Source: Haladaptatus sp. DJG-WS-42
GTDB lineage: Archaea > Halobacteriota > Halobacteria > Halobacteriales > Halococcaceae
Reading direction: 5' to 3'
Assembly: GCF_037198285.1 (NCBI RefSeq)
Contig: NZ_CP147243.1
Location: forward strand, 1,790,422 to 1,854,421
Length of the DNA stretch: 64,000 bases
The notes below the pieces were generated by a model, which saw nothing but the letters and a program-made list of their open reading frames with translations, ran no database searches and was not told the DNA's origin. This document shows positions 1,820 to 17,848 of this stretch, one piece after another (position 1 is the stretch's first letter; each line of letters starts with the position of its first letter). The position numbers were made by a program, and so were the translations under genes.

Positions 1820-1841
1820 TGGGCCCGGGCGGATTCGAACC
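1820..1841 (-). repeat. tRNA-Val 3'-end copy 3 (distal)
   Basis: The copy matches the T-arm, acceptor 3' strand and discriminator of the tRNA-Val gene with one change in the acceptor (ggcccg instead of ggctcg). It is preceded in the tRNA direction by a GGGAGC...GCGACC segment that resembles those beside the tRNA-Arg and CAT-tRNA copies. Confidence 0.85.
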
Positions 1842-1870
1842 CCGGTCGCAGACAAGCTGCTCCCTACTTC

Positions 1871-10950: not shown

Positions 10951-10963
10951 CGTCCTGACGGAG
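10951..10963 (-). repeat. tRNA-Arg 3'-end copy, distal
   Basis: Thirteen bases are identical to the acceptor 3' strand, discriminator and 3' T-stem strand of tRNA-Arg. They are joined to a TCTACGAGA hairpin where the T-loop would be. Confidence 0.85.
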
Positions 10964-11018
10964 TTCTACGAGATCGTTTGCTCTCGTAGAGCAGGTCAGG
11001 GCGCGAAATGAAATGAAG

Positions 11019-11031
11019 CGTCCTGACGGAG
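11019..11031 (-). repeat. tRNA-Arg 3'-end copy, second
   Basis: The same 13 bases as at the tRNA 3' end follow the motif GCGCGAAATGAAATGAAG, which also borders the genuine tRNA 3' end at 11231-11248. The CTCACAC/GTGTGAG hairpin follows immediately on the plus strand. Confidence 0.85.
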
Positions 11032-11071
11032 TCTCACACTCTCGTGTGAGGCCCGTGAGAACTGCGTTCTC

Positions 11072-11116
11072 ACGGAGATTTGAACTCGGTCGCTGGCGCT
11101 CCCTGCTCAAATCTCC
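11072..11116 (-). repeat. T-arm copy in a long hairpin with the shared cassette
   Basis: A ten-base-pair stem (GGAGATTTGA/TCAAATCTCC) contains the tRNA-Arg T-arm sequence. On the minus strand, bases 11106-11077 match 17812-17842 beside the CAT-anticodon tRNA with two mismatches and one gap. Confidence 0.85.
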
Positions 11117-11180
11117 GCATGTGACGGTCAGTCGAGCACAGCCTCGTCGCTCCGCTCCTCGGTGTTGTGCGCGACAGAAA

Positions 11181-11193
11181 CGTCCTGACGGAG
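11181..11193 (-). repeat. tRNA-Arg 3'-end copy, proximal
   Basis: Thirteen bases are identical to the tRNA-Arg 3' end, followed by an 11-base-pair hairpin at 11195-11220 (TCTACGAGAGC/GCTCTCGTAGA). Confidence 0.85.
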
Positions 11194-11248
11194 TTCTACG
11201 AGAGCATTCGCTCTCGTAGAGCAAGTCAGGGCGCGAAATGAAATGAAG

Positions 11249-11321
11249 CGTCCTGACGGAGATTTGAACTCCGGTCCCTGGCTCCGCAAGCCAGGAGGAT
11301 AGTCCACTACCCTATCAGGAC
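11249..11321 (-). tRNA. tRNA-Arg (anticodon GCG)
   Basis: The 73-base cloverleaf has acceptor stem GTCCTGA/TCAGGAC with discriminator G, anticodon stem CTGGC/GCCAG with loop TTGCGGA giving anticodon GCG, and T-arm CGGAG/CTCCG with loop TTCAAAT. There is no intron and no encoded CCA. The array of partial copies lies directly downstream. Confidence 0.96.
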
Positions 11322-11487
11322 TCATCTACACGTACCCGTGGCGGAGTTAAAGGGGTTACGATTCACGCCCTTCTCCCGTCCGTCGGTTTCACGGGTGTCA
11401 CTCACTCGCGGGCGCCGCCGACCGATATGTGAAAGAGCCGTTTGAACCTCCCAAACGACCTTTATTACATCCCACTCACCTGATGGT

Positions 11488-11979
11488 ATGAACCGTCGAA
11501 AATTCCTCGTGGCCGTCGCCGCGGGTGGCGTTGCTGGTGTCGCAGGCTGTGTGAGCTCGACGAATCCCGGGACTGGTGGCGAGAACACGACCGATGACCC
11601 GACGACGGAGCAGTCGCCCACGCTCACGAACACGTCGTTTACGGTGCTGTCGAAAGACTGTGGCAGCGAAGTGAGCGAGGCGTCCGTTTCCCACCAACCA
11701 GACCAGTCGCAGGTGCAGGTTTCGGGCATCATCTTCGGCCCGAGTGCCTGTTACACGGGGACCCTCGAATCGGCGACCTACGACGGCGAATCCGATACGC
11801 TCAGCGTTCACGTCGTCACCGAGCAACCGGACGAGGACGCGATGTGCGCCCAGTGCATCCAGGAGATTCAGTACGAAGCGTCGATTGGCTTTGAAAACGG
11901 CCTCCCCGAGACGGTGGTCGTGACCCACACCACGAACGGCGAAGCCCACGAAGTCGCCCGCGCCTCGCAGTCGGCGTAG
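11488..11979 (+). CDS. Tat-exported lipoprotein of unknown function
   Basis: The 163-residue protein starts 'MNRRKFLVAVAAGG' with a twin-arginine motif, and a lipobox 'VAGC' places the lipidated Cys near residue 21. A Thr/Ser/Pro-rich linker follows. The mature domain has four cysteines, including 'CAQC' near residue 126, and may be held by disulfides outside the cell. No family with a known role is recognised. It precedes the RPA gene by about 130 bases and probably has its own promoter. Confidence 0.78.
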   Translation: MNRRKFLVAVAAGGVAGVAGCVSSTNPGTGGENTTDDPTTEQSPTLTNTSFTVLSKDCGSEVSEASVSHQPDQSQVQVSGIIFGPSACYTGTLESATYDGESDTLSVHVVTEQPDEDAMCAQCIQEIQYEASIGFENGLPETVVVTHTTNGEAHEVARASQSA

Positions 11980-12078
11980 GTTCAAGGCAGATGGCGGCGC
12001 AAGTGTCCCTCATGCACCCAACTTTTGACCGGTTGAAATCGGCAGACGAGAGGCGTCTACTCGGCCAACGACAACGCT

Positions 12079-12083
12079 TAAGC
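12079..12083 (+). promoter_or_regulatory. TATA-like element for rpa
   Basis: The palindromic CGCTTAAGCG at 12076-12085 contains a TTAAG core 30 bases before the ATG at 12113. This agrees with leaderless initiation there rather than at the in-frame TTG at 12095. Confidence 0.4.
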
Positions 12084-12112
12084 GCGGCCATAACTTGGTG
12101 AAGTGTACGATT

Positions 12113-13504
12113 ATGGGCGATATTGAGGACATCTATGGGGACCTTGAGGCCGACGTCTCAGAGGAGGAGTTTCGAGAAGCGGTGGCCGCAAAGGTCGAAC
12201 AGATGGGCGGGCTTGCAGACGAGGAAACGGCAGCCATGCTCATCGCGCACGAACTCGCGGACGGTGAGGTAGAGGGCATCGCGGACATCAAGCCCGGCCA
12301 AGACGAGGTCAAGTTCCTCGCGAAGGTCATGAAAATTGGCGACTTGCGCACCTTCGAGCGCGACGGCGAGGACGAAGACGGGCGCGTCATCAACGTCGAA
12401 GTCGCAGACGAAACCGGAAGCATTCGCATCAGTTTCTGGGACGAGCAAGCAGAGGCCATCGCAGGCGACCAGCTCGAAGTCGGCACCGTGTTGCGCATCA
12501 AAGGCCGTCCGAAAGAGGGCTTCAACGGCGTTGAAGTCAGCGTCGACCAAGCAGAACCCGACGACGAGGTAGACATCGACGTCGAGGTGCTCGACACCCA
12601 CACCATCGAGAAGCTCTCACTCGGCCTGTCTGATGTGAACCTGCAGGGCAAAGTGCTCGACACCGGCACGATTCGAACGTTCTCGCGTGACGACGGCTCC
12701 GAGGGGCGCGTCTCGAATCTCACACTCGGCGACCCGACCGGTCGCATCCGAATCACGCTCTGGGACGAGCAGGCGAATCGCGCAGAAGAACTCACCGCTG
12801 GCACGTCGGTCGAAATCGTCGATGGCTACGTCCGCGAGCGCGACGGCAACTTAGAACTCCACGTTGGCAGCCGCGGCAAGGTCGAAGCAATCGACGAGGA
12901 CATCGAGTACGTCCCCGAATCCACGCCAATTTCGGAGGTAGAAATCGGCATGAACGCGGATATCGGCGGCGTCGTCCGGTCTGCGGACCCAAAGCGCACC
13001 TTCGACCGTGACGACGGCTCCGAGGGACAGGTTCGGAACATCCGCGTCCAAGACTCGACCGGCGACATCCGCGTCGCGCTCTGGGGTGACAAAGCAGATT
13101 ACGAAATCGGTCCCGGCGACGAAGTCCACCTCGCAGACGTGGAAATCAAAGACGGCTGGCAAGAGGACATGGAGGCCTCGGCTGGCTGGAAGACGACGAT
13201 TTCAGTCACGCAAGACACCGACCGCGAAGTTGAAACGGACTCCACGGATGACGCCAAAGACACGGGCCTCTCTGCGTTCGCAAACGGCAACAAGCCCGAT
13301 ACCGACGACGGCGAGTCTGCCGACACAGACGGCGAGACGGTCGAGTTCACTGGGACGGTCGTCCAAGCGGGCAATCCAGTTGTCCTCGACGACGGCAAAG
13401 AGACGATGAGTGTCGAAACGTCCCAGACCGTCCAGCTCGGCCAAGAGATTACGGTTCGTGGCCAGCTGCGCGACGGTCGCCTCGACGCCACAGACATCTT
13501 TTAA
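12113..13504 (+). CDS. rpa2: Replication protein A, multi-OB-fold ssDNA-binding protein
   Basis: The 463-residue acidic protein has an N-terminal helical region (about 1-55) followed by three clear OB folds (about 60-140, 165-255, 275-360) and a fourth near the C terminus (about 410-463). OB2 and OB3 share 'FxRDDGSEGxVxN' segments, evidence of internal duplication. No zinc finger is visible. In Haloferax the stand-alone essential RPA2 has this architecture and, as I recall, also lies beside the histone gene. It binds single-stranded DNA in replication and repair. It is 66 bases upstream of the histone gene on the same strand. Confidence 0.88.
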   Translation: MGDIEDIYGDLEADVSEEEFREAVAAKVEQMGGLADEETAAMLIAHELADGEVEGIADIKPGQDEVKFLAKVMKIGDLRTFERDGEDEDGRVINVEVADETGSIRISFWDEQAEAIAGDQLEVGTVLRIKGRPKEGFNGVEVSVDQAEPDDEVDIDVEVLDTHTIEKLSLGLSDVNLQGKVLDTGTIRTFSRDDGSEGRVSNLTLGDPTGRIRITLWDEQANRAEELTAGTSVEIVDGYVRERDGNLELHVGSRGKVEAIDEDIEYVPESTPISEVEIGMNADIGGVVRSADPKRTFDRDDGSEGQVRNIRVQDSTGDIRVALWGDKADYEIGPGDEVHLADVEIKDGWQEDMEASAGWKTTISVTQDTDREVETDSTDDAKDTGLSAFANGNKPDTDDGESADTDGETVEFTGTVVQAGNPVVLDDGKETMSVETSQTVQLGQEITVRGQLRDGRLDATDIF

Positions 13505-13533
13505 GCAGCAAAACGCCCTGTAGCGCGACCGAC

Positions 13534-13546
13534 GGAAACTCTTATG
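13534..13546 (+). promoter_or_regulatory. BRE/TATA-like promoter of the histone-deacetylase operon
   Basis: GGAAACTCTTATG contains a BRE-like purine run and a CTTAT core about 28 bases before the ATG at 13571. The position argues for leaderless histone translation and against the in-frame ATG at 13544, which lies inside the promoter. Confidence 0.5.
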
Positions 13547-13570
13547 GGGCACTCAATCCCCTTCTGTGGT

Positions 13571-14002
13571 ATGAGTGTAGAGCTACCGTTCGCCCCGGTA
13601 GACACCATCATACGCCGCAATGCTGGCTCCCTTCGCGTGAGTGCTGACGCCGCAGAAGAGCTTGCGCGCCGGATTCAAGGCCACGGTGCGACGCTCGCGA
13701 TAGACGCCGCAGAGCACGCGACGGCGGATGGTCGAAAAACCCTGATGGCGCAGGATTTCGGTGTCGAACAGGCCATCGACAAGGATTCGCTGACCTTGCC
13801 GATTGCGCCCGTAGACCGCATTGCACGCCTCCGCATCGACAACAAATATCGCGTGGCGATGGACGCGCGCATCGCGCTTGCTGACATCCTCGAAGACTAT
13901 GCAGAGGACATCGCGCTCGCCGCCGCGACGCTTGCCCGCCACGCGAACCGCCGTACCATCAAGGCAGAAGACATCCAGACCTATTTCGAACTCTTTGAAT
14001 GA
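13571..14002 (+). CDS. hstA: Archaeal doublet histone
   Basis: The 143-residue protein consists of two fused histone folds (about residues 1-67 and 73-143). Each begins with 'LPxAPVDxI' and ends with a helix containing 'ARHANRRTIKAEDI' or its counterpart. Such head-to-tail fusions are the haloarchaeal form of the HMf histone and can fold as an intramolecular dimer. The charge is more acidic than in methanogen histones. It overlaps the deacetylase gene by four bases (ATGA), so the two should be translationally coupled. Confidence 0.93.
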   Translation: MSVELPFAPVDTIIRRNAGSLRVSADAAEELARRIQGHGATLAIDAAEHATADGRKTLMAQDFGVEQAIDKDSLTLPIAPVDRIARLRIDNKYRVAMDARIALADILEDYAEDIALAAATLARHANRRTIKAEDIQTYFELFE

Positions 14003-15012
14003 AATTTGGCTACAGCGAGGTCTGTCTGGACCACGACACGGGGGTTCGCCATCCCGAGAGTCCAGACCGTCTGCGCGCGATTCGTCGGGGGCTTGCCAAA
14101 CAACACGGCGTTTCGTACATCGATGCTGACCCCGCGACTGAAGCCGCTGTCCGCGCCGTCCACGACGACGAGTACATAGACCGCGTCAAGCAGTTCTGTG
14201 CCGACGGCGGCGGCGAGTGGGACCCTGACACCATCGCCGTCGAAGCGACGTGGGACGCCGCCCTCAAGAGCGCCGGTCTCGCAGAATGGTCCGCACGCGC
14301 CGCCCTCGACGGCGAAGACGGCCGGAACACCCCGTTCTCGATTGGTCGTCCACCGGGCCACCACGCCGTCTACGACAACGCCATGGGCTTTTGTTTCATC
14401 AACAACGCCGCAGTCGCCGCCCAGTCCGCGCTCGACAGCGGTGATGCCTCTCGAGTGGCCATTTTCGACTGGGACGTCCACCACGGCAACGGCACCCAGG
14501 ACATCTTCTACGAGCGCGGCGATGTCCACTATTCGTCGTTCCACGAAGCCGGGCTGTACCCCGGCACTGGCGAGGTCGAAGAAACTGGCGAGGGCGACGG
14601 AACGGGGACGACGCTTAACGCCCCGCTTCCCTCTGGGAGTGGTGATGCAGAATACGTCGGTGCGTTCGAGGAGTTGCTCATCCCTGCCCTCATGGAGTTC
14701 GAACCCGATTTACTGCTCGTGAGTGCGGGCTTCGATGCCCACGAACACGACCCGATCTCTCGCATGCGCGTCTCGACCGAAGGATACGGCGTCCTCACCG
14801 ACCGCGTTCGCACGCTCGCCGACGACGTGGACGCCTCGCTCGGCTTCGTCCTCGAAGGCGGCTACGGCCTCGACACGCTCGCAGAAAGCATCACGATGGT
14901 ACACGAGGTGTTCGATGGGCGCGAACCGGTCGAACCAGACGGCGACGCCTCAGAACGCGCCCAACTCATCATCGACCGGGCCGCGGAGGCTCACGGCCTC
15001 GGCGAGAAATAA
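13999..15012 (+). CDS. hdaI: Histone deacetylase superfamily enzyme
   Basis: The 337-residue zinc-dependent deacetylase has the complete active site: 'GRPPGHHA', 'GFCFINNAAVAA', 'DWDVHHGNGTQ', 'SAGFDAHEHDP' and 'EGGYGLD'. The family also includes acetoin- and polyamine-deacetylating enzymes. Coupling to the histone gene by a four-base overlap favours an acetylated chromatin protein as substrate, but this is inference. The last 22 bases overlap the convergent cca gene. Confidence 0.92.
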   Translation: MKFGYSEVCLDHDTGVRHPESPDRLRAIRRGLAKQHGVSYIDADPATEAAVRAVHDDEYIDRVKQFCADGGGEWDPDTIAVEATWDAALKSAGLAEWSARAALDGEDGRNTPFSIGRPPGHHAVYDNAMGFCFINNAAVAAQSALDSGDASRVAIFDWDVHHGNGTQDIFYERGDVHYSSFHEAGLYPGTGEVEETGEGDGTGTTLNAPLPSGSGDAEYVGAFEELLIPALMEFEPDLLLVSAGFDAHEHDPISRMRVSTEGYGVLTDRVRTLADDVDASLGFVLEGGYGLDTLAESITMVHEVFDGREPVEPDGDASERAQLIIDRAAEAHGLGEK

Positions 15013-16352
15013 CGCGCGAGCGCTTCGCCGAAATCCGTCGCGAGTACGGCTACGTCCCCACCAACGAGTACCTCGTACGCTTGTTCTATCTGCCGCTGGA
15101 CGGTTGCACCGAGCGCCACGTCGAAGAGCGCGTCGCTTTCCAGAAATTCGCTGGCTGTCGTAAACTCTCGGTCGCGTTCGACGACGTAGCGGTCGCCATC
15201 GATGAACGGTCCGAACACAGCAGGGTTGTCTGCGTACTTCTCGAAAAAGCCCGCTGCGTGAGTTTTGACGTGGACGGGTGGGCCTTCGTGGCGTTCGACA
15301 GCCGGTCGGGTTGCGATATCGAGTTCAGCGAACAGCACGGAGGTGTCGGCCGCGAACGTTGCTGTTCGGAGCACGTCAAACCCTCTGCGATTCAACTCAC
15401 TTGCCATCCCGTCTACGGACTTGCGTAGCTGTGGATACAATTGGTCGTCGACGATGTCCGGTGTCTCGAAGCAGATGGCGACTGGAACGGTTTCACGGCG
15501 TTCGATGGCCATTCGAACTTGGTCTTCGGTGAGCGGGTCGGGCGTGGTGGCGATGAACAACGCTTCAGTTGGCTCTTCGAGGAAGACACGGGCGTAGTGC
15601 TGGAGTCGGGCGACGTTGTCGGGCGAGACGGCCGCCGCGACGTTTCGGAGTGGGTCGGTCGGGTCGATGACGACGAGCGCGTCTGTGAAGCTGCGCTGAC
15701 CGTGGCTCTCCGGGTCGAATTTCACTGGTGGCTTCCAGTCGGCGGCGGCTTCGAGCAACGCGAGCAGACTGCCGTATTCGAGAATCAGGAGTTCGGTGAG
15801 ATAGCCGGAAAACCCCTCAGTGCGGAGGTCGCTCCCGTAGACGCCGATGCCCTTCAGGAACTGCTTTGCGAGGCGCACGTCGCCCGCGAGTTCGGGCGTC
15901 AAGTGGTCGTCGAGATACGCGGTGTGAAACGGCGTGCGGTCGACGGCGGACTTGATGTCAGAGGCCGTCGGCACGTCGTAACACGGGACGAGGTCGACGC
16001 TGAAGCCGTCGAACTCACCTTTCGTGTACGGGTGTTCTGCGTACTCTTCGTGTCCGTCCGGGAGCACCTGCGAGCCAATCTGAAGCCCCAATCGTTCCAA
16101 CTTCTCGCGGGGGAGGTCTGTAGGGAAGCGGACGAACACGTCGATGTCTCGGTCGCCGCTGATCCACGTCCCACGGGCGGTGCTCCCGACGAGGACGGTG
16201 TCAGCCTCGACTGCGAGGTCGTCGATGGCGTCCTGCGTGCGGTCGAGGAGTGCCCGGGCTGCCTCGGTGAGTCGGGCCTGTTCGTCCGCGTCGGGCTCGA
16301 CCCAGTCCCGGACGCCGTCGAACACCCGCTCGTATTCGTCTCGCTCGGTCAT
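14991..16352 (-). CDS. cca: CCA-adding tRNA nucleotidyltransferase (archaeal class I)
   Basis: The 453-residue enzyme has the class I nucleotidyltransferase signature 'GSTARGTWISGDRDIDVF', with metal-binding Asp 69 and 71, and a third carboxylate in 'VDLVPCYDV'. The rest follows the archaeal CCA-enzyme pattern of neck, body and tail domains. It adds CCA to tRNA 3' ends, needed here because none of the four tRNA genes in the window encodes CCA. The start codon is 99 bases from the divergent tRNA-Asn gene. Confidence 0.93.
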   Translation of the reverse strand: MTERDEYERVFDGVRDWVEPDADEQARLTEAARALLDRTQDAIDDLAVEADTVLVGSTARGTWISGDRDIDVFVRFPTDLPREKLERLGLQIGSQVLPDGHEEYAEHPYTKGEFDGFSVDLVPCYDVPTASDIKSAVDRTPFHTAYLDDHLTPELAGDVRLAKQFLKGIGVYGSDLRTEGFSGYLTELLILEYGSLLALLEAAADWKPPVKFDPESHGQRSFTDALVVIDPTDPLRNVAAAVSPDNVARLQHYARVFLEEPTEALFIATTPDPLTEDQVRMAIERRETVPVAICFETPDIVDDQLYPQLRKSVDGMASELNRRGFDVLRTATFAADTSVLFAELDIATRPAVERHEGPPVHVKTHAAGFFEKYADNPAVFGPFIDGDRYVVERDREFTTASEFLESDALFDVALGATVQRQIEQAYEVLVGGDVAVLATDFGEALARYFSPRP

Positions 16353-16451
16353 TGAAATGGATTGACAGCGGGGTAGTGAAAGCGTGTCGATGCGAGGGAA
16401 AAAACGAAAGCCATATCATGCAACTCCCACTACCAGAAAACGCAGTCGTAA

Positions 16452-16554
16452 GCCGTCGTAGCTCAGATGGTAGAGCACCTCGCTGTTAAGGTTCGCAGTT
16501 CTTCTGTGGGCCGCAGACACGAGGTGGTCCCAGGTTCGAGCCCTGGCGACGGCG
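16452..16554 (+). tRNA. tRNA-Asn (anticodon GTT) with a 30-base intron
   Basis: Acceptor stem GCCGTCG/CGACGGC, D-stem GCTC/GAGC, anticodon stem CCTCG/CGAGG and T-stem CCAGG/CCTGG are all intact. The anticodon loop CTGTTA is interrupted after position 37 by 30 bases (16489-16518), which is the canonical archaeal intron position. Removing it leaves 73 bases. The intron is presumably removed by the archaeal splicing endonuclease through a bulge-helix-bulge. A partial 3'-end copy lies about 105 bases downstream. Confidence 0.93.
16489..16518 (+). other. tRNA-Asn intron
   Basis: The 30-base insertion lies between anticodon-loop positions 37 and 38. It contains GGTTCGCAG and a GC-rich 3' part. The boundaries follow from restoring a seven-base loop and a five-base-pair stem. 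Confidence 0.85.
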
Positions 16555-16660
16555 CTTTTACTACTCTCACTCCGTGAGGAACTCCTGTTCCGAACACGTC
16601 CGAGAGTAGTCACAGCGAAATTCGACAGGCTCGAATAACGAGCGAGTAGCGCGAGCGAGT

Positions 16661-16685
16661 GGATTCGAGCCCTGGCACTGGCGCT
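16661..16685 (+). repeat. Partial copy of the tRNA-Asn 3' end
   Basis: The sequence repeats the T-arm and acceptor 3' part of tRNA-Asn (about 16533-16556) with one inserted base and a short altered stretch in the acceptor. It is preceded by a hairpin CTACTCTC/GAGAGTAG at 16561-16609 and by a GAGCGAGTAGCG-type segment. No gene lies between 16555 and 16708. Confidence 0.82.
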
Positions 16686-16708
16686 CAGTAGCTGATTAAG
16701 CTGCGCGG

Positions 16709-17434
16709 CTACTCGTGGGGGTGGTCGTCTGTGTTGTTGTACTTCCACAACCCTTCGTCGTTCTCTCGGGCCCAATCCTGCGCTGCTTGAATTGCGTCTG
16801 CATACCTCGAGTTCTCGTTTGTGAGGACACCGTAGCCGGAGCCAGCGATGTACTCAGCCCACGGTGTCTCTCTGCCGTCCCAATCGAAGTTCAGGTGGAC
16901 GAGCGCGGTTCCGTCCGCAGTTGTCTCCCCGGTGTGTTCGATACTGAGATTCTCGCCACTTGGATGACTCAGCTTTTCCATGCCATCCGAGGCTGCATCG
17001 TACGCGATTTTCATCAAGTACTCTTGATGCATCTGAACCATCTCCGCAGATTTTGTTTCGTGGTAGTAGAACTCGGTCGGGTCATTTTCTGTTGCTGTGT
17101 ACGAAGGGACCCGCACGTCGGCTAAGACTGCTGGGGCTTGTTTGTCTGCATCGGCATAGTACAGTGTGAACGTCGTGGCATCGTGCAGTTCGGTCAACCC
17201 GCCCACTTTTGTCCCGGATTGTAGCTCTCCATCGGCTTCGTTGTCCGAAGATTCTGTTGGCGCAGAGGTGGCTGTTTCAACGGGCGTCGAACTCGCAGCA
17301 GTAGTTTCAGCAGACGAGTCAGTAGTTTCGCTATCCGGGATTGCGTTGGTCGCTCTCTCATTTCCCGTGCAGCCCGCAAGTGCGACCAGACTGGCGCAAG
17401 AAGCTGTCGAATACAAAAACATTCTTCTTTCCAT
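16709..17434 (-). CDS. Lipoprotein with a degenerate staphylococcal-nuclease-like domain
   Basis: The 241-residue protein starts 'MERRMFLY' and has lipobox 'LAGC' near residue 22, then a Ser/Thr/Ala-rich linker to about residue 70. The mature domain follows the SNase pattern: 'LHDATTFTLYYAD' in place of the DGDT strand, 'VLADVRVP' in place of RLxGIDxPE, a YLxxIAYD helix, and the family-typical end 'AIQAAQDWARENDEGLW'. The catalytic Arg and Glu positions are not conserved, so nuclease activity is unlikely. It lies between two tRNA genes with 3'-end copies. Confidence 0.62.
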   Translation of the reverse strand: MERRMFLYSTASCASLVALAGCTGNERATNAIPDSETTDSSAETTAASSTPVETATSAPTESSDNEADGELQSGTKVGGLTELHDATTFTLYYADADKQAPAVLADVRVPSYTATENDPTEFYYHETKSAEMVQMHQEYLMKIAYDAASDGMEKLSHPSGENLSIEHTGETTADGTALVHLNFDWDGRETPWAEYIAGSGYGVLTNENSRYADAIQAAQDWARENDEGLWKYNNTDDHPHE

Positions 17435-17682
17435 ACTTGTTGTCTAGTTTACTGGTTGTTATTTGAATCATTGGATTCTGGCAAGCAAAATCTGACTTGT
17501 TATTCCTCCACAAACCAGAACCACCGGCTCGACACGCGGGGTAGAAAAATCAAGCGACTTGCTATTCTAACACCATCTGGCACACTTTTACTACTGCGGT
17601 CTGGCTAGGAATCGACGTCTGGAGTGGACGCCTCGCGTCAAGCGATAGGCTAAATACACTTACGAGAAAATGAGCCAACAGA

Positions 17683-17757
17683 GGGCCCTTAGCTTAGTCT
17701 GGTTAAAGCGCCCGGCTCATAACCGGGTGAGCGCTGGTTCAAATCCTGCAGGGCCCA
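17683..17757 (+). tRNA. tRNA with CAT anticodon, probably Ile2 (or elongator Met)
   Basis: The 75-base cloverleaf has acceptor GGGCCCT/AGGGCCC with discriminator A, and anticodon stem CCCGG/CCGGG with loop CTCATAA. It lacks the initiator A1-U72 pair and the three G-C stem signature, and it has no intron, which haloarchaeal elongator Met usually has. Ile2, read with agmatidine at C34, is therefore favoured. The T-stem GCTGG/CCTGC contains one U-U mismatch, which is odd. A partial 3' copy lies 75 bases downstream. Confidence 0.88.
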
Positions 17758-17758
17758 T

Positions 17759-17848
17759 GATTCTTCCGCGAATACTCTGAGCGGAGAATCATCTATCCCG
17801 AAGGTTTTGAAGCAGGGAGCGATAGCGACCGAGGTTCAAATCCTGCAG
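17759..17848 (+). repeat. Hairpin, shared cassette and T-arm copy after the CAT tRNA
   Basis: A hairpin at 17759-17790 (GATTCT...AGAATC) is followed by 17812-17842, which matches the minus strand of 11077-11106 near tRNA-Arg almost base for base. Bases 17833-17848 copy 16 bases of the tRNA T-arm and acceptor start. The rest of the acceptor is missing from the copy. Confidence 0.83.

Follow-up and report, generated by a model that had tools for sequence, protein, structure and literature searches.

Small repeat units at the 3' ends of transfer RNA (tRNA) genes, for which we use the name tRNA-end hairpin cassettes, were characterised from a 64,000-nt stretch (the window) of the 2.78-Mb genome of Haladaptatus sp. 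DJG-WS-42 (the host; contig NZ_CP147243.1, positions 1,790,422 to 1,854,421). The units have a common anatomy, are restricted to tRNA 3' ends, and fold on the tRNA-sense strand into a hairpin whose inner pairs covary. The same cassette stands behind different tRNAs, and sister species differ by whole units. We regard the units, with a confidence about midway between belief and doubt, as an order-wide family of small structured proliferating elements at haloarchaeal tRNA 3' ends.

A preliminary description of the window had reported a 30-base cassette common to the tRNA-Arg site and the site of a tRNA with CAT anticodon, and the sequence confirmed it: minus strand 11106-11077 (GCAGGGAGCGCCAGCGACCGAGTTCAAATC) and plus strand 17812-17842 (GCAGGGAGCGATAGCGACCGAGGTTCAAATC) differ by two mismatches and one gap. 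With two mismatches allowed, a 16-nt core (GGGAGCGATAGCGACC) matched the window exactly twice, at these two sites, as against a mean of 0.05 matches in the shuffled window, where none of 100 shuffles reached two. In the whole genome, exact matches to a 22-nt pattern were found only at the Arg and CAT-tRNA sites (n = 2). The looser versions that had been placed at Val (1841-1867, minus strand) and Asn (16637-16662, plus strand) exist as well. The cassette had been described as abutting a T-arm copy, and a direct copy does follow it; the inverted T-arm copy in front of it had been missed (Arg, CGGAGATTTGA; Met, the CAT-tRNA unit, GGTTTTGAA; Asn, GGCTCGAAT; Val, GGCGATTCGAA). The Arg unit reads CGGAGATTTGA-cassette-GTTCAAATCTCCG, and the Met, Asn and Val units are alike. 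Since an inverted T-arm copy stands before the cassette and a direct copy after it, the unit is a hairpin. Single-strand folding gave a T-arm hairpin in which a GA/GA internal loop precedes an inner helix, with a fold z-score of -6.3 for the Arg unit (as RNA) and -3.4 for the Met unit (as DNA). In an Rfam scan of the window only tRNA families reached the gathering score, and there was no RtT match.

A unit is about 100-140 nt long, begins at the last base of the tRNA and can be repeated in tandem. It consists, in order, of a pyrimidine-rich start, often a hairpin that we call hairpin A, a spacer, an inverted T-loop/T-stem, a hairpin-forming cassette of 20-50 nt, and a direct 3'-end copy, which comprises the T-loop, the 3' strand of the T-stem and the 3' strand of the acceptor stem of the same tRNA, to its last base. 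The next 6 nt are 76% pyrimidine after tRNAs and 78% pyrimidine after copies. Hairpin A has the form stem-GA-RC...GY-GA-stem; its strict form was present in 27 of 132 trailers of 70 nt, against 5 of 132 upstream stretches and 2 of 132 antisense trailers, and the RC/GY pair was consistent in all 27 (16 GC/GC, 11 AC/GT). Cassettes of type 1 follow RGGA-(inner stem)-GACY, while type 2 (stem-TCGCAG-stem...stem-ACCGT-stem) and type 3 (CTCG-CAAA...TTTG-CTCA) were described by reading sequences.

On the minus strand, the unit of tRNA-Arg(gcg) (11248-11321) has its inverted T-arm copy at 11107-11117, its cassette GCAGGGAGCGCCAGCGACCGA, part of the reported 30-mer, at 11086-11106, and its direct copy of the tRNA-Arg 3' end at 11065-11085. 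On the plus strand, the tRNA with CAT anticodon (17683-17757) is followed by a hairpin (17759-17790), an inverted T-arm copy (17803-17811), the cassette GCAGGGAGCGATAGCGACCGAG, likewise part of the 30-mer (17812-17833), and a direct copy of the tRNA 3' end (17834-17848). The cassette unit of this supposed array is present, but it is a single full unit, whereas the Val array has three. The latter descends, on the minus strand, from tRNA-Val(tac) (2161-2234): unit 1 comprises hairpin A (CTGTTGC-GA-AC..GT-GA-GCAACAG, 2130-2157), an inverted T-arm copy (2103-2114), a cassette with a CAAGAC/GTCTTG stem (2073-2102) and a direct copy of the tRNA-Val 3' end (2051-2072); unit 2 comprises hairpin A (2017-2042), a diverged inverted T-arm copy (1990-2002), a cassette (1950-1989) and a direct copy (1928-1949); and unit 3 comprises hairpin A (1894-1917), the inverted T-arm copy GGCGATTCGAA (1868-1878), the type 1 cassette GTAGGGAGCAGCTTGTCTGCGACCGGG (1841-1867) and a direct copy (1820-1840). 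The cassette at the tRNA-Asn site is real, and the correction concerns the tRNA: tRNA-Asn(gtt) is an intron-bearing gene at 16452-16554 on the plus strand, with a 30-nt intron, followed by a hairpin with a long stem (ACTACTCTC/GAGAGTAGT, 16560-16610), the inverted T-arm copy GGCTCGAAT (16628-16636), the cassette AACGAGCGAGTAGCGCGAGCGAGTGG (16637-16662) and the direct copy of the tRNA-Asn 3' end (16663-16683). Positions 10951-11221 also hold acceptor-only copies of tRNA-Arg (CTCCGTCAGGACG) after hairpins CTACGAGAGC..GCTCTCGTAG. These comprise, all on the minus strand, a hairpin (11195-11221) before the first copy, AACTCCGTCAGGACG (11181-11195), a second copy (11019-11033), and a hairpin (10965-10991) with a third copy (10951-10965), together 10951-10991. 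They are a further unit type, with the junction in the T-stem and not in the T-loop.

The restriction to tRNA 3' ends was examined over 44 host tRNAs found with the Rfam model, each with its surrounding stretches. When the last 24 nt of each tRNA served as query, with 17/24 matches needed and 2 kb searched, 24 of the 44 had a downstream direct copy of their own 3' end (32 copies); as controls, upstream direct matches occurred at 3 tRNAs and inverted downstream matches at 2. Other 24-nt parts of the host tRNAs gave at most one match per direction, and the 5' parts were not copied. A stricter search with the last 16 nt of 43 tRNAs (at least 14/16 nt, within 600 nt) found own-end copies downstream of 21, against 0.26 expected with the ends of other tRNAs, and returned no upstream and no inverted match. 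Copies follow the tRNA within about 40-400 nt, and the units seem to occupy tRNA flanks with free intergenic space. The cassette pattern GATTTGAANCAGGGAGCG, scanned with two mismatches and with the reversed pattern as control, matched the host 17 times, 15 times beside a tRNA gene and twice in arrays displaced by integrase-bearing inserts. All 17 matches trace to tRNA 3' ends, which answers the concern, raised in the preliminary description, that hits might be distributed at random, and we found no dispersal over general intergenic DNA. Host Ala(tgc), Ser(gct) and Leu(cag) are immediately followed by an apparent ribosomal RNA or protein gene and have no units.

The same pattern matched 49 of 60 relatives, with the reversed control near zero. 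The enrichment across haloarchaea that had been proposed as a check is evident: 28 of 30 fetched matches, mostly from relatives, lay directly downstream of a tRNA in the same orientation (two behind tRNA-Trp). Match L065 appears to be a chance match, and in L072 a T-arm array stands on a short contig that does not include its tRNA. A phylum sample outside the order gave scattered two-mismatch matches, one of them with a single mismatch; the plasmid and phage collections gave no match to the pattern, and three matches on viral contigs were without tRNA context and were taken as chance. Sampling of tRNAs independently of the cassette pattern (18/24 matches, 400 nt; the 30 best-scoring tRNAs per genome for G021, G053, G042 and the control G079) found own-3'-end copies at 20/45 tRNAs in G0, 12/43 in G1, 14/44 in G2, 10/29 in G021, 16/30 in G053 and 15/30 in G042, that is, at 28-53% of sampled tRNAs in six Halobacteriales genomes, and at 0/31 in G079, from the same phylum. 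In the same samples there were 0-1 upstream matches per genome, and 0.1-3.3 were expected with the ends of other tRNAs. G042 had no match to the pattern, yet carried copies with other cassette types, and the pattern therefore understates the family. Pattern scans and tRNA sampling together support the earlier proposal of a single family of small elements tied to tRNA 3' ends. A known insertion sequence or terminal repeat of a miniature inverted-repeat transposable element (MITE) is an unlikely source of the cassettes.

The imperfect cassette hairpin is conserved by pairing, as covariation and folding both indicate. In type 1 cassettes the outer pair was G-C in 32, A-T in 14, G-T in 6 and A-C in 4, with a Fisher p of 1e-5 that is optimistic because related sequences were taken as independent, as they were in all cassette pair counts. 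The second inner pair was C-G in 41, T-A in 12 and G-C in 2, with one misfit, and the next pairs covaried (GC/GC 34, GT/AC 10, AC/GT 4 and GG/CC 2 of 56). The T-arm stems do not follow this pattern. In a set of 88 units, of which some were counted with overlapping partners, a deviation from the tRNA was shared by arm and copy at 1 position, while 56 were found in the copy alone and 84 in the arm alone, which rules out that the T-arm hairpin is kept by compensatory change between its arms. Because the deviations are unshared, the T-arm stems derive from the tRNA and then decay apart; the inner cassette, unlike these stems, is conserved as structure. On the tRNA-sense strand, cassette stems contained 125 G-A against 7 C-T mismatches, about fourfold the expectation from composition; G-T and A-C counts, compared for RNA versus single-stranded DNA, were 32 and 21. 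Folding was better downstream of the tRNAs (mean z -1.36) than upstream (-0.5; first-order Markov shuffle, p 2e-13), and trailers folded slightly better on the sense than on the antisense strand (p 0.005). These data favour a function or an intermediate on the tRNA-sense strand, whether RNA or single-stranded DNA. A retrocopy of mature tRNA is ruled out, since CCA was found near the end of only 2 of 97 copies.

Cassettes are more alike within a genome than at the same tRNA across genera: the nearest cassette lay in the same genome for 62 of 84 (label shuffles, mean 25, maximum 41), and the nearest one in another genome stood at the same tRNA for 2 of 84. In G053 one 28-nt cassette, TCAGGGAGGAGCTTTGCTCCGACCGTGG, follows both Lys(ttt) and Arg(ccg) without any difference, and versions with a single change follow Arg(tct) and Leu(tag); the T-arm copies around the cassette mostly match the local tRNA (Leu, GGATTCGAA/TTCGAATCC; Lys, GGATTTGAA/TTCAAATCC). 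Its 23-nt core is exact at all four of these tRNAs and, in the sister species G028, exact once, at Leu(tag). With three mismatches allowed, all nine matches to the core in the two genomes fell at apparent tRNA 3'-end copies, and two of the nine had no tRNA nearby. Among segments common to tRNAs of different amino acids, 28% start at the inverted T-loop and 33% end at the direct T-loop, against about 1% of random positions in either case, the 3' boundary being partly trivial because tRNA-specific sequence starts there. Such segments were in tRNA orientation 924 times and inverted 0 times, with pairs counted from both sides; this absence of inverted cassettes disfavours a two-way recombinase exchange at inverted T-loops.

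Whole-unit gain or loss at a fixed site was found when the sister species were compared. Flanks of orthologous tRNAs are 71-99% identical between G053 and G028, and at Glu(ctc) G028 has an extra 101-nt unit precisely between the tRNA 3' end and the G053-like following sequence; further whole-unit differences occur at Val(gac), Asp, Tyr, Phe, Ser(tga) and Arg(ccg). In the host genus, a His unit is present in G0 only, Asn units number one, none or two, and the difference at Leu(caa) is precisely that of a unit. These differences can be explained by recombination between the 20-nt repeats and alone are no proof of transposition.

The two host pattern matches without an adjacent tRNA are arrays carrying Lys(ctt) and Phe 3' ends. 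Both adjoin a tyrosine integrase gene (Pfam) and lie beyond the far end of an insert, about 3.8 kb (Lys(ctt)) and 9.6 kb (Phe) from the parent tRNA. At L169 (host 110500-113000), the insert of about 3.8 kb parts tRNA-Lys(ctt) (115664-115737) from the older array; at L170 (host 1778900-1781500), the insert of about 9.6 kb belongs to tRNA-Phe (1790020-1790093), just left of the window. Another species of the host genus has its Lys(ctt) unit in place. Since the arrays lie beyond the far ends of the inserts, integrative elements appear to have targeted these tRNA ends too and to have displaced older arrays, and the units are not their remnants. L303 in G028 and L308 in G053 likewise are arrays that end with an apparent tRNA-Lys(ctt) 3' end and have no neighbouring tRNA; they probably reflect an older displacement like that at the host inserts. 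Their Lys or Phe 3'-end copies rule out L169, L170, L303 and L308 as tRNA-independent orphans.

If the units are proliferating elements, the cassettes may move by copying, with a single-stranded hairpin of the tRNA-sense strand as the intermediate; the T-loop arms of this hairpin would anneal to, or recombine with, a tRNA T-loop. The target would supply the tRNA-specific end, the tRNA would remain intact, and arrays would then grow or shrink by recombination between 3'-end copies. We suggest, tentatively and with more doubt than confidence, that this could amount to a gene-free integron-like system of the Halobacteriales, where recombination would place single-stranded hairpin cassettes in any tRNA T-loop, with the T-arm as the universal site and the 3' end rebuilt each time. 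Tyrosine recombinases are possible movers of the cassettes. Several points count against proliferation. No transposase or integrase was tied to the units, an excised or circular form was not seen, and the Y1 (HUH) transposase is absent from G001 and G021, two array-bearing genomes, though it may have been active there in the past, and is present in five others. At most sites unit gain is indistinguishable from loss. Beyond the T-loop the inverted arm is no more than slightly tRNA-specific (mean 4.8 against 3.95), and these values lend little support to the impression, gained by inspection, that the tRNA 3' end is copied in inverted form over its full length; the direct side is tRNA-specific in 75% against 3% at score 7. 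Because the inverted arm is barely tRNA-specific beyond the T-loop, it is the direct side alone for which an origin from the target has good support. As a serious alternative, cassettes could spread by gene conversion between existing units, a process for which polyploid haloarchaea would be well suited. The structural constraint, finally, could reflect an RNA function instead of mobility.

The strongest competing explanation is that the units are a functional structured RNA trailer serving termination, 3' processing or a released small RNA and homogenised within a genome by gene conversion among tRNA flanks. To it belong the location of all units on the tRNA strand, the excess of G-A over C-T mismatches on the sense strand (125 to 7), the better folding downstream than upstream and in sense than in antisense, and the covarying inner pairs. 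In E. coli tyrT/RtT, repeat units 3' of the tRNA carry the tRNA 3' end, and the units here resemble them in repeating the tRNA 3' end downstream of the tRNA; we know of no inverted T-arm hairpin cassette in RtT that is spread over many different tRNAs. The RtT RNA, reported to be released from tRNA operon transcripts (PMC4986893), offers a precedent for such a trailer. We nonetheless consider this possible and not probable: unit number varies freely between sister species, at least about half of the tRNAs lack a unit, the arms show no compensation (1 shared deviation against 56 and 84 single ones) and the cassettes differ between genera. Units could also be by-products of replication template switching or slippage at the T-arm palindrome, with no dedicated machinery and with the 20-nt repeats driving tandem growth and loss. 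Template switching typically leaves inverted beside direct T-arm copies, each unit lies between direct repeats of about 20 nt, and the differences at Leu(caa), Glu(ctc) and Asp are simple gains or losses of units. This account leaves unexplained the identical non-tRNA cassettes behind different tRNAs, the strict cassette orientation, the order-wide conserved RGGA...GACY core and a control genome without any copies, and we hold it to be unlikely. Least probable, and in our judgement very improbable, is that the copies are attR remnants of viruses or plasmids that once integrated at tRNA 3' ends and have since lost their interior. The copies do span the T-loop to the tRNA 3' end, a known integrase target (PMC8371274), as attR fragments do, and two integrase-bearing host inserts used the 3' ends of tRNA-Lys(ctt) and tRNA-Phe. 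Against this, units of about 100 nt are homologous across tRNAs and genera without gene remnants, at both real inserts the array is found past the far end, 3.8 kb away from the tRNA in one case and 9.6 kb in the other, and a species of the same genus keeps its Lys(ctt) unit in place.

Each of the closest known systems shares some features with the units and differs in others. Integrated elements leave the 3' part of the tRNA directly repeated downstream of an intact gene (PMC9897764, PMC8371274, PMC3119063); such attR fragments lie several kb to tens of kb off with integrase and cargo between, an arrangement found in the host only at the two separate inserts, whereas the units lie close to the tRNA and carry a conserved hairpin cassette. 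Like REP/RAYT, PATE and MITE-type repeats, they are short, imperfect, gene-free hairpins in many copies with strand polarity; those repeats scatter over intergenic DNA, whereas all traced host units are at tRNA 3' ends. Like integron attC arrays, they are tandem units, each closed by an imperfect hairpin whose inner part varies, and are added beside a fixed site; unlike integron cassettes, they are gene-free, and the fixed site is the ends of many different tRNAs. In Methanopyrus kandleri about half of the tRNA genes are followed, at a distance of about 10 bp, by a conserved palindrome (PMC5217627); it has another sequence and was reported from this one species, with neither tRNA 3'-end copies nor arrays. 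We found no earlier description of the units in the open-access literature; most subscription papers lay outside this search, and novelty is provisional.

If the units are indeed proliferating elements, the flanks of essential tRNA genes across an archaeal order would be shaped by an undescribed family of miniature elements. This would bear on the processing and termination of tRNA 3' ends, on how T-loop sites at tRNA ends come to be available to integrating viruses and plasmids, and on annotation, in which partial tRNA copies are usually read as prophage scars. Because sister species differ by single units, the mechanism is directly testable in genetically tractable haloarchaea.

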